NCBI RefSeq assembly: GCF_003052295.1
Contig: NZ_QBLC01000004.1
Location: 62,001 to 126,000, forward strand
DNA from: Trichococcus paludicola
GTDB taxonomy: Bacteria > Bacillota > Bacilli > Lactobacillales > Aerococcaceae
Direction of reading: 5' to 3'
DNA length: 64,000 bases
Notes under the pieces: model-generated
Seen by the model: the letters and a program-made list of their open reading frames with translations, nothing else
Told to the model about the DNA's origin: nothing
The model's database searches: none
Position numbers and translations under genes: made by a program
Part shown: one piece after another, positions 34,246-42,736 of the stretch
How positions within the stretch are numbered: position 1 is the first letter of the stretch
Layout: each line of letters begins with the position of its first letter

Positions 34246-34293
34246 AAAGAAGAACGGACCTGCAGCTACTGCAGAACCGTTCTTCTTTGTTTT
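34246..34293. terminator. Bidirectional terminator between def and the ABC transporter
   Basis: A long stem, GAAGAACGG with CCGTTCTTC (34249-34257 / 34277-34285) and inner CTGCAG/CTGCAG, has T-rich sequence on both sides. It serves the convergent def and transporter ATPase genes. Confidence 0.88.
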
Positions 34294-35030
34294 TATTTTG
34301 TAAGATATCTTTCCAGGAACTGCTTTGTGCGCGCTTCGTTTGGATGATTGAAGATAAGGTCAGGGGCTCCCTGCTCCAGGATGACGCCTTGATCCATGAA
34401 GATGACGCGATCGGAAACTTCCTTCGCGAACTCCATTTCATGCGTCACAACAATCATCGTCAAACCGCTGTTGGCAAGATCCTTCATGACCTTCAATACT
34501 TCTCCCACCATTTCGGGGTCCAAAGCCGATGTCGGCTCATCGAACAATAGCGCATCCGGTTCCATCGTCAACGCGCGGGCGATAGCGACGCGTTGTTTTT
34601 GGCCGCCTGACAATTGATCCGGTTTGGCGTTGATGAAGTTCCCCATGCCGACCTGTTCCAGATAACCCATGGCGATCTTTTCGGCTTCCTGCTGGGATTT
34701 TTTAAGGATTTTCACAGGCCCTACCGTGCAATTATGCAACACGTCCAAGTTGTTGAACAGATTGAACTGCTGGAATACCATCCCCAATTTGCTGCGGTAC
34801 TTGAAGATGTCATGCTTCGAATCCAAAACGTTTTCGCCGTTGTAGATGATTTCTCCCGCTGTAGGTTTTTCAAGCAGATTGATGCAGCGCAACAGAGTCG
34901 ATTTACCGGATCCCGATGAACCGATGATGCACACAACTTCTCCTTTATTCACGCTGAAATCGATGTCCTTCAGCACTTCATGTTGACCGAAGTTTTTCTT
35001 CAGATGCTGTACGTCAATTACTTTTTCCAT
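34293..35030 (-). CDS. Amino-acid ABC transporter ATP-binding protein (probable lysine importer)
   Basis: A 245-residue ATPase of the polar amino acid uptake family (GlnQ/HisP type). It has Walker [10 protein letters not shown] (37-45), Q-loop [14 protein letters not shown], signature [15 protein letters not shown], Walker [15 protein letters not shown] and H-loop VVTHEM. The TTG at 35033 is one codon upstream; the ATG at 35030 with GGAGG is the start. It is the last gene of a permease-binding protein operon. The lysine riboswitch upstream of the operon points to lysine, not glutamine, as the substrate; that is inferred from the leader. Confidence 0.93.
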
Positions 35031-35052
35031 CAAATGATTCCTCCTGTGGCAA

Positions 35053-35838
35053 TTAATTTGCTCTGTCTCTTCCTACTTGTTTTTTGCGAGCCATTAATTC
35101 TGGTGTAGTCAATTGGTCTTGCCCTGCACCCATCATCTGATAATTATCAGGACCTTGCATTTTTCTTTCAATGGCACGCAGGACGCGCGTCACCGTGAAG
35201 GTCATGACGAAGTAAATGATTGAAGCCACGAAGAATGATTCGAAATAACGGAAGTTATTCCCGGAAATCGATTTGGTCGTAAAGAACAATTCCGAAACGG
35301 ATATGACGTTCAATACGGATGTATCTTTGATGTTGATGACGAATTCGTTCCCTGTAGCCGGCAGAATATTCCGGATTACTTGCGGCATGACGACATTCCG
35401 CATCGTTTGCAGATGATTCATCCCGATCGCTTGAGCAGCTTCGAATTGCCCTTTGTCGATGGATATGATCCCACCTCGGACAATCTCCGACATATAAGCT
35501 CCCGTGTTGACTGATACAATCAGCAACGCTGCAAAAATGCGGTTCATGTCGATATCAAATGCCAAAGCCGCCCCATAATAGATGACCATCGCTTGCACGA
35601 TCATCGGCGTTCCTCGGAAAATTTCGATGTAGCATGACAGCAAAAAATTCACCACATTGTACGCGTGTTTTTTCCAGCCCGATTCCGCAACCGGGATCGT
35701 ACGGATGACGCCGATCATAAGACCGATACCCAGTCCGATTACAGTTCCGATTAAAGCGATATATAATGTTGTCCATGCACCGGATAAAAACTGTCTCCAG
35801 TTTTCTTCGATGATTCGGATAACCCAACTAAACTCCAT
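35053..35838 (-). CDS. Amino-acid ABC transporter permease (probable lysine importer)
   Basis: A 261-residue HisM/GlnP-type permease. About five membrane helices are followed by the conserved EAA loop [20 protein letters not shown] with [11 protein letters not shown] (about 140-170), which docks on the ATPase. The N-terminal segment [18 protein letters not shown] is typical of the family. A single permease gene is present, so it presumably forms a homodimer. The C-terminus carries a polar extension after the last helix (about 225-261). Confidence 0.93.
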
Positions 35839-35876: not shown

Positions 35877-36731
35877 TTATTCAGCTGACGGCTGGTTTTG
35901 GATTGCTTCATCCATCATTTGGATGCGTTCTTCTTCGGTGATGCCGCTCAAAATCTCATTGATCTGATCTTTCAATTCACTTTCTTTAATCAAACCGATT
36001 GCGATTTCTGAATCAGCTGCGGACAATTCAAACGTATCCGCTTCATCCAATTCGATCATTTTGAATGCAGAATTGGCTGCTGAAGCGCTGATGGCTTCTG
36101 GACGTTCCGATACGTAAGCATCAATTGTACCTGACTCCAAAGCTACGCGCATGGAAGTGAAACTGTCCATTGCCGGTTGCTTTTGCACGCCTTCGATCTG
36201 ATCGATGACGCCATAGTGCAATGTATTCAACTGTGCTGTGACTTTCGCATCCGCGAAGTCAGCTAAAGCTGTCGCATCTGCATAAGCGCCATCCGCTTTT
36301 ACGACAATCACAAGTTCAGTCGTGTAGTAGGAATCCGAGAAATCAATCGCTTCTTTACGTTCCTCCGTTGGCGACATACCTGCAACGATAGCATCGATTT
36401 TGGATGAAACCAATGCCGGCACCAAGCCATCCCATTCCGTCTTGACGATGACCAGTTCTTTGCCTAATCCATCTGCCACTTTTTGTGCCATCTGAACATC
36501 ATAGCCATTTGCATAACCATCAGCACCGTCGATTTTCACAGCACCGTTGCTGTCGTCATTTTGGGTCCAGTTGAAAGGAGGATAGCCCGCTTCCATTCCA
36601 ACTGTGAATGTTTCAGAATCCGCTGTGCCATTAGCCGCGGATGAATCATCAGTGGCTCCGTTACCGCAACCCGCCAAAATAAACAAGCCTGTCAATGCCG
36701 CCATTGTTTTTTTCCATGTTTTTACTGTCAT
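35877..36731 (-). CDS. Amino-acid ABC transporter substrate-binding lipoprotein (probable lysine)
   Basis: A 284-residue type-3 binding protein (SBP_bac_3). A signal peptide ends in lipobox ILAGC with Cys22 as the lipid anchor, followed by a Ser/Asp/Thr-rich spacer. The binding-protein core has VGMEAGYPPFNWTQ (about 44-57), GYDVQMAQKVADGLGKEL, DAIVAGMSPTEERKEAIDFS and DAYVSERPEA. AGGAGG precedes the ATG. It is the first gene of the operon, transcribed through the lysine riboswitch. Confidence 0.94.
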   Translation of the reverse strand: MTVKTWKKTMAALTGLFILAGCGNGATDDSSAANGTADSETFTVGMEAGYPPFNWTQNDDSNGAVKIDGADGYANGYDVQMAQKVADGLGKELVIVKTEWDGLVPALVSSKIDAIVAGMSPTEERKEAIDFSDSYYTTELVIVVKADGAYADATALADFADAKVTAQLNTLHYGVIDQIEGVQKQPAMDSFTSMRVALESGTIDAYVSERPEAISASAANSAFKMIELDEADTFELSAADSEIAIGLIKESELKDQINEILSGITEEERIQMMDEAIQNQPSAE

Positions 36732-36870
36732 CTCTATTTCCTCCTAATGTATATAGTCCTTTTTAACTGCTCAAAAATAATAACAAATAACCCTTCTTAT
36801 ACGGCCGCTTTTTATCCACCTTTCTACCCATAGAGCGTCATAACAACGATAATTCAGTCCGTTTTTGTGC

Positions 36871-36908
36871 AAAAAAATAGACTATAAAGCAAAAGGCCCT
36901 ATAATCCA
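36871..36908 (-). terminator. Riboswitch expression-platform terminator
   Basis: A 12-bp stem with G-U pairs (36897-36908 with 36879-36890) is followed by seven T on the minus strand. It lies 3' of the lysine aptamer and upstream of the transporter genes, as in a transcription-terminating OFF switch. Confidence 0.85.
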
Positions 36909-37075
36909 GCTTCCTTCTGCCCGCAATACCGAAAGTACTCCACAAACGATTTTGGGCAAATCGTTCTGACAGTGTCAGGATTCTTAACCCTGACCCCAAC
37001 ACAGCAAACGCTGCATTTCGGCGAACACCCCTTTCAAACGGGCATTTTACTCTTGATGTTCGCAGCCTCTTCCAT
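36871..37075 (-). ncRNA. Lysine riboswitch (L box) with terminator
   Basis: Read on the minus strand, the conserved L-box elements appear in order: GAGGCTGCGAACATCAAGAG at the 5' side (37050-37069), GAAAGGGGTGTTCGCCGAAA (about 37016-37035), the paired GGTCAGG/CCTGACA arm, and CTGTCAGAACGATTT followed by AAATCGTTTGTGGAG. The aptamer spans about 36931-37075, then comes a terminator stem with a T run. The 5' GGAAG can pair with CTTTC at the aptamer 3' end, and a second GGAAG copy lies downstream, which suggests the antiterminator swap. Known L boxes bind lysine and shut off expression. Confidence 0.92.
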
Positions 37076-37107
37076 TATTGTATGATCGTATGACATTATT
37101 GTATGTT

Positions 37108-37136
37108 ATTATACTGTACTGATTTTTAATTTGCAA
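37108..37136 (-). promoter_or_regulatory. Sigma-A promoter of the riboswitch-controlled transporter
   Basis: On the minus strand, TTGCAA (37131-37136), a 17-base spacer and perfect TATAAT (37108-37113) lie directly upstream of the L box. Confidence 0.9.
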
Positions 37137-41434: not shown

Positions 41435-42586
41435 TTAATAACATTTCGAGCACGGTTCTAATCCCAATGATAGAGCCTGGTCCATTGTCGATTCAATGTA
41501 TGTCCCATTTCCACATTTATGATTATGGTATTTTGAGCCAGTTGGAGTAATTAAAACAACCTGCCCATAATTTTGTTGTGGAGCTGCGGCCGCTCTGTTG
41601 GCTTCCGCCTGGGCAGCCGCTGCTTGCTCTGCTGCTACTCTATCTGCCTCTGCTTGGGCTGCGGCAGCTTGCTCTGCAGCAATTCTATCAGCTTCTACTT
41701 GAGCCGCAGCAGCTTGCTCTGCAGCGATTCTATCAGCTTCTACTTGAGCCGCAGCAGCTTGCTCTGCAGCGATTCTATCAGCTTCTACTTGAGCCGCAGC
41801 AGCTTGCTCTGCAGCGATTCTATCAGCTTCTACTTGAGCCGCAGCAGCTTGCTCTGCAGCGATTCTATCAGCTTCTACTTGAGCCGCAGCAGCTTGCTCT
41901 GCAGCGATTCTATCAGCCTCTGCTTGAGCAGCCTGCTCTTCAATAGTTCTTTCTACGCTAGATATACGTGAAGAAAAGTCCTTTTGCCGGGTGACGACAG
42001 CCGCTAAATAGGTTTTTGCATTCTCAATTGATTCACCCGTTAAATTTGCTTCTGCCGATGCTATTGCTTCCTCCGCTAATCTTATGTTTTCTTCTTCTCG
42101 AATTACTTCTTCCTCAATAGCTTTCAATTTATTTTGAAGTGCTTGGGAAGGCTCATCTACTTTATCTAAGGTTTTTGTGGCAGTCTCAAAATTAGATCGA
42201 GATGGCCATGAATCAGCAACAGTAATCGCGGCAGTGGCACTTTTCAATAATTTTTTTTGATTTGATTCTGCTTTTGCATTTTCTTCTGCTGCAAGTTCTT
42301 TCTCCGTATTTCCCTTCGTAGATGCAGTCTCTACTAGGGATTGCTTTGCCGTTGATTCTGAGGCAGTACTTCCCTCCCCAGATGTCATTAATGCGAAGGT
42401 ACCAAACAAACTGATGACCGTACCAACAATAGCAAGTTTCATTTTTTTAGGATTGGGAGTCTTTTTCATGTAATGCCAAATACCATATCCGAAAATTATT
42501 AAAAGCACGGGGGATATTAGCTGGAAAATAGCAATAACAAAGACAGAAGCAAGTAATACGCCAAATAATTTCATAATCTTTTTCAT
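41435..42586 (-). CDS. Membrane protein with 15-residue tandem repeats and C-terminal Cys/His motif
   Basis: A 383-residue protein of unknown function. Two N-terminal hydrophobic segments (about 8-36 and 50-68) are followed by a Ser/Thr/Glu-rich stretch and a charged helical region (about 100-220). Seven tandem 15-residue repeats built on VEADRIAAEQAAAAQ (about 222-326) would form a long helix. The C-terminal domain has YHNHKCGNG and EPCSKCY (His354, His356, Cys358, Cys379, Cys382), a pattern like small metal-binding tails seen on Firmicute surface proteins and nucleases. The start at 42586 has AGGAG 8 bases upstream. It is divergent from the nuclease gene and AT-richer than its neighbours. 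Confidence 0.8.
   Translation of the reverse strand: MKKIMKLFGVLLASVFVIAIFQLISPVLLIIFGYGIWHYMKKTPNPKKMKLAIVGTVISLFGTFALMTSGEGSTASESTAKQSLVETASTKGNTEKELAAEENAKAESNQKKLLKSATAAITVADSWPSRSNFETATKTLDKVDEPSQALQNKLKAIEEEVIREEENIRLAEEAIASAEANLTGESIENAKTYLAAVVTRQKDFSSRISSVERTIEEQAAQAEADRIAAEQAAAAQVEADRIAAEQAAAAQVEADRIAAEQAAAAQVEADRIAAEQAAAAQVEADRIAAEQAAAAQVEADRIAAEQAAAAQAEADRVAAEQAAAAQAEANRAAAAPQQNYGQVVLITPTGSKYHNHKCGNGTYIESTMDQALSLGLEPCSKCY
41609..41923 (-). repeat. Seven 45-bp tandem coding repeats
   Basis: In-frame units of 45 bases encode VEADRIAAEQAAAAQ; the five central copies are near-identical at DNA level and the outer two differ by a few bases. A partial eighth copy follows (to about 41583). 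Near-identity in third positions indicates recent copy-number change by slippage or recombination. Confidence 0.92.
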
Positions 42587-42736
42587 TTTCATTACTCCTT
42601 TATTAAGAATTTATAACAAACACATTACCGTTATAATCATAGTTTAATATTAATATATATAAATAGCAATTATACTAAGGAAAATTTTTATCTGCGATGT
42701 TAAGATAGAAATAGTAATTGAAAGGAGGATAGATAT

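Follow-up and report, generated by a model that had tools for sequence, protein, structure and literature searches.

Three genes that are predicted to encode an ABC importer of polar amino acids lie close together in a 64,000-nucleotide stretch of Trichococcus paludicola DNA (the window), behind a leader that contains a riboswitch aptamer and a terminator. The features of the locus are the following, in the order in which they would be transcribed.

37108-37136, minus strand: sigma-70-type promoter-like site (TTGCAA at 37136-37131, 17-nt spacer, TATAAT at 37113-37108), 10 of 12 consensus matches
36925-37079, minus strand: lysine riboswitch aptamer (RF00168), covariance model, 90.2 bits, full length
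37069-37074, minus strand: 5' strand of the P1 helix (UGGAAG), from the RF00168 alignment
36930-36935, minus strand: 3' strand of the P1 helix (CUUUCG), from the RF00168 alignment
36913-36920, minus strand: candidate antiterminator strand GCAGAAGG, with partner CCUUUUGC at 36896-36889, an unproven proposal from folding
36878-36908, minus strand: intrinsic terminator stem-loop of 13 pairs with a loop of 5 (CUUUU), from pattern scan and folding
36871-36877, minus strand: terminator U-run of seven U, from pattern scan
36740-36745, minus strand: Shine-Dalgarno-like AGGAGG, from the sequence
35877-36731, minus strand: substrate-binding lipoprotein of 284 aa, lipobox LAGC at residues 19-22, SBP_bac_3 (PF00497) with 90.5 bits, cut-off 26.4
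35053-35838, minus strand: ABC permease of the polar amino-acid (HEQRo) type, 261 aa, PF00528 and TIGR01726 with 68.8 bits, cut-off 42.2
34293-35033, minus strand: ABC ATPase of 246 aa, PF00005 with 128.8 bits

The interval singled out in a preliminary description of this DNA, 36871-37136, opens precisely with the -35 hexamer and closes with the last U of the U-run, all of it on the minus strand. The presence of a lysine riboswitch (L box) in this leader, claimed there from the letters alone together with a proposal to search with the covariance model, has been borne out by that search: in an Rfam 15 scan of the whole window, RF00168 matches positions 37079-36925 (minus strand) with 90.2 bits (gathering score 30; E 2.1e-22), over the full length of the model (1-182 of 182). 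Only two matches reached gathering level in the 64 kb, this one and a tRNA. Helices P1 to P5 and the conserved core stretches align in order, as expected for the five-helix junction, and the folding z of the whole leader is -2.6. The locus thus shares with the L box of RF00168 a full-length aptamer and a downstream terminator, and it differs from it at the junction between P5 and P1, where A stands for the consensus G. This A appears to be a natural variant and not a sign of decay, because it is present in 13 of 13 copies from the genus and also in other high-scoring lysine riboswitches (loci L005, L028, and L186).

The promoter had been described as perfect, which is true of the -10 hexamer and of the spacing but not of the -35 hexamer, with 4 of 6 matches (10/12 overall). 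The most divergent congener (locus L044) has the same two hexamers at the same 17-nt distance. Between the -10 hexamer and the aptamer (window 37075-37107, minus strand), the motif CATAC is repeated three times; this repetition is found in 12 of the 13 genus genomes and was not seen in L044.

Downstream of the aptamer, the proposed terminator was confirmed as a stem of 13 pairs (36908-36878) followed by seven U. A single terminator-like site was found in the 601 bases scanned, a count that is not significant by itself, since shuffled sequences average 0.6; the two segments containing the stem have folding z values of -3.3 and -3.6. In a comparison among homologous leaders, the interval between aptamer and gene has a terminator-like stem in 53 of 58 leaders, vs. 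0 of 58 coding stretches of equal length and 44 of 1160 shuffled leaders (the last batch of 20 named loci described below stands outside this test and outside the helix tests on 54 leaders). Within the genus, 12 of 13 genomes share the same 51 bases of the expression platform (36871-36921), while the spacer downstream is variable. In the 13th genome, that of L044, the terminator stem is retained with two G-U to A-U changes, and P1 stays paired through one two-sided change (G-C to A-U) and two one-sided changes. Because of these pair-keeping changes and of the identical platform in the other 12 genomes, the comparison supports P1 and the terminator as the probable working parts of the switch.

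Several helices have been considered as the antiterminator. The one suggested in the preliminary description was a pairing of a downstream GGAAG copy with the 3' strand of P1. The copy does exist (36914-36910), but the pairing is worth only -2.2 kcal/mol, and it was rejected with a probability of 0.00 at all 14 transcript ends, whether the P1 3' strand was free or blocked. In L044, all five pairs of this helix can still form, two of them as G-U, so the comparison does not break it either. A second candidate, the local helix between GCAGAAGG and CCUUUUGC, has -9.0 kcal/mol alone and reaches a probability of 1.00 for transcript ends from 36889 to 36883; it is gone once the terminator is complete, as shown by folding at successive transcript lengths. 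Its pairing, however, is no more than that of shuffled upstream sequence (7 cross pairs in the window vs. 8.9, r 0.73), and it stays an unproven candidate. Cross pairs of the same type average 8.8 over 54 leaders, vs. 7.2 in shuffled sequence, with r of 0.05 or less in 6 of the 54; these leaders are that of the window and the 53 of the 58 that have a terminator-like stem, with L157, L158, L171, L193, and L200 dropped.

A long-range antiterminator has been modelled as well, in which the P1 5' strand and part of the aptamer core (AAGAGGCU, 37071-37064) would pair with the 5' half and the loop of the terminator (GGCCUUUU, 36898-36891). This pairing has a probability of 0.57 to 0.88 in the full leader before completion of the terminator, and the duplex z in the window is -2.4; averaged over the 54 leaders, however, z is only -0.75, the rank is 0.05 or less in 4 of 54, and the helix loses its outermost pair in L044. 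We regard this antiterminator as improbable. If it were real, aptamer and terminator would compete directly for one strand, which would be an unusual antiterminator. When the P1 3' strand is blocked in a simple folding model, the probability of the terminator falls (0.51 vs. 0.95 at 36876), and the switch is therefore not reproduced by equilibrium folding alone.

The lipoprotein, permease, and ATPase genes lie on the same strand with gaps of about 20 to 40 bases, and their products, a family 3 solute-binding lipoprotein, a permease of the HEQRo type and an ATPase, make up what by domain content is a polar amino-acid ABC importer. Their more specific names are divided. The preliminary description had expected the sequence alone to give a glutamine-type transporter, and this is true of the permease and the ATPase, for which the best NCBIfam models are those of glutamine (166.8 and 301.6 bits, both below cut-off); the binding protein, on the contrary, scores best with the lysine/arginine/ornithine model TIGR01096 (88.9 bits, below the cut-off of 256.35). 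None of the three GlnHPQ equivalog cut-offs is reached (NF007029, 64.3 of 303 bits; NF007028, 166.8 of 303; NF007027, 301.6 of 379). Since all the best models are below cut-off and split between substrates, the names do not by themselves fix the substrate. Neither does the predicted structure of the binding protein (AlphaFold model, mean pLDDT 87.0) tell lysine from arginine or glutamine, because its neighbors in Foldseek and VIA-align have many ligands, including arginine, lysine, glutamine, glutamate, opines, and others, besides cyclohexadienyl dehydratases. Arginine- and lysine-binding proteins (4zv1, 6ggv, 2q2a, and 3k4u) are among the nearest solved ones. With the lysine/arginine/ornithine and ArtJ-type binders (TIGR01096; 2q2a, 1lst) the protein shares the SBP_bac_3 fold, with a VIA-align Z of 22.8 to 1lst, from which it differs in sequence (20% identity over 224 residues).

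The association of riboswitch and transporter is constant in the genus Trichococcus, where the binding protein has its closest named relatives (99% identity to that of T. collinsii): the riboswitch lies upstream of this gene in 13 of 13 genomes. One of these loci (L041, about 1180-1460, genome G065) has the riboswitch 468 bases from the gene match vs. 186-194 in the other 12 genus genomes, a spacing that looks like an insertion of about 275 bases between terminator and start codon. The window's own genome, which is 63% complete, contains two lysine riboswitches, one before this binding-protein gene and one before a gene that exceeds the equivalog cut-off for dapA (329.3 vs. 206.15 bits). In the same incomplete genome, SBP_bac_3 has 11 matches, and only the one in the window is preceded by a lysine riboswitch. 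In the one congener inspected (genome G060), further lysine riboswitches stand before a near-identical dapA and before a dapD N-acetyltransferase gene, which is followed by an amidohydrolase gene, both of them above their cut-offs.

For a wider set of relatives, five binding proteins, each encoded at a locus with the riboswitch, were aligned and used as query against genome contigs, and 286 relatives were confirmed; the nearest 80 were examined, a non-random sample that was chosen by similarity and includes ten Trichococcus and a few near-duplicates. RF00168 was found upstream in 78 of these 80 (20/20, 19/20, 19/20, and 20/20 by batch), and the riboswitch-bearing loci span Bacillales, Lactobacillales, and Clostridia. 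RF00168 is missing from two of the 80: the contig of L167 is cut 192 bases ahead of the match, and L184 is a real absence. The genes for binding protein, permease, and ATPase are separate and in that order in 79 of the 80, the remaining one being a fusion. The leaders of these near homologues contained no further RNA regulator at gathering level. One record among the named loci (L126, MUZD01000003.1), named Sedimentibacter sp. SX930, encodes a binding protein that shares 97% identity with that of Trichococcus and is probably a misnamed genome.

In the GTDB family of the window, the link is less general. With strict filters, RF00168 was found in 59 of 76 genomes (58 besides the window's own), with 106 matches in total, and homologues of the binding protein (E 1e-30) occupy 71 places in 67 of the 76 genomes. 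Counted by coordinates, as a match on the same strand within 900 bases upstream, a riboswitch precedes 37 of these 71 places. Unlike in the window, where the binding protein is separate from the permease, both are fused in 38 of the 71; the riboswitch is present in 24 of the 33 places with a separate binding protein vs. 13 of the 38 with a fusion. When the loci without riboswitch were rescanned with Rfam (all 32 in the tree), 31 had no RF00168 anywhere in the stretch. On a tree of binding proteins (69 rows, with two weak places of 34-35% identity left out), the riboswitch label requires 8 changes, vs. a mean of 23.1 after shuffling, and 0 of 500 shuffles were as low, although near-copies in such a tree cluster by themselves. 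Because of these counts and of this clustering, the link between riboswitch and transporter belongs to certain clades, and roughly half of the family homologues do without it. The remaining one of the 32 rescanned loci, in genome G003 (L101/L056), has a particular arrangement: its riboswitch (L101 1717-1863, minus strand) follows the binding-protein gene (2810-1998) and precedes that of the permease, which would leave only the permease and the ATPase under its control.

Systems of this kind have been described before. In the available text of the survey by Mukherjee et al. (2017; PMC5584792), lysX–lysY (COG0834) is listed as a lysine transporter of the ABC type and placed under lysine riboswitches, which are reported on such transporters across Firmicutes, Actinobacteria, and Fusobacteria; some of the members are annotated as glutamine transporters, and the proposal is credited to Rodionov et al. 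(2003). The window case fits this published description, being likewise an ABC amino-acid transporter with an upstream lysine riboswitch, a likeness by description. It therefore opens no new class of system. In the titles and abstract openings listed by a literature search, no description of this Trichococcus transporter was found. What changes is the name: with riboswitch and transporter found together in 78 of the 80 closest named loci, this transporter, which extends across Bacillales, Lactobacillales, and Clostridia, can be called a probable lysine importer instead of bearing a generic or glutamine-type name.

In L boxes, lysine closes P1 and a terminator stops transcription. By analogy, the cell would transcribe the leader, and under high intracellular lysine the aptamer would close P1 and allow the 13-pair terminator to form, so that transcription would end ahead of the lipoprotein gene. 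Under low lysine, P1 would not hold, some competing structure would delay the terminator, and the importer would be made. We thus consider it very probable that the locus encodes a three-gene ABC importer of lysine, perhaps also of other basic amino acids, turned off in the presence of lysine by transcription attenuation. Aptamer, promoter-like site, terminator, gene order, and the recurrence of riboswitch with transporter have been shown by computation. The statement in the preliminary description that the leader identifies a lysine importer was too strong, as a broader specificity for basic amino acids is possible; nevertheless, a lysine importer is the best reading, because the riboswitch is real and recurs upstream of nearly all of the nearest homologous transporters.

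The alternatives concern the breadth of the substrate, its identity, and the function of the riboswitch. The transporter might be a general importer of basic amino acids (lysine, arginine, ornithine, and histidine), with lysine as one substrate among several, as suggested by the best NCBIfam model of the binding protein (lysine/arginine/ornithine, 88.9 bits) and by the arginine- and lysine-binding proteins among its solved neighbors. This is a possibility to be taken seriously, though a minority one, given that 78 of 80 near homologues have a lysine riboswitch as regulator and that their leaders contain no other RNA regulator at gathering level. It is much less likely that the transporter behind the riboswitch serves another amino acid, such as glutamine, whose uptake would be tied to lysine status. 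The top glutamine models of the permease and the ATPase would agree with it, and the 34 of 71 family places without an upstream riboswitch indicate that homologues manage without lysine control; however, neither glutamine score reaches its equivalog cut-off (303 and 379), the remaining lysine riboswitches seen in the genus precede genes of lysine biosynthesis, and the survey, in the text available, places lysine riboswitches on genes of lysine biosynthesis, transport, and in some cases catabolism (PMC5584792). Scarcely credible is a degenerate relic without function: the non-consensus A at the P5-P1 junction in 13 of 13 genus copies could be read in this way, but the equal A of the high-scoring L005, L028, and L186, the window score of 90.2 bits, and the conservation of the 51-base platform in 12 of 13 genomes beside a varying spacer all argue against it.

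In a plasmid search, partial matches were found in 1626 records, and 0 of them covered 80% of the query. Elsewhere in the window, at 41435-42592 (minus strand), an open reading frame of 385 aa contains repeats of a EADRIAAEQAAAAQV-like unit.
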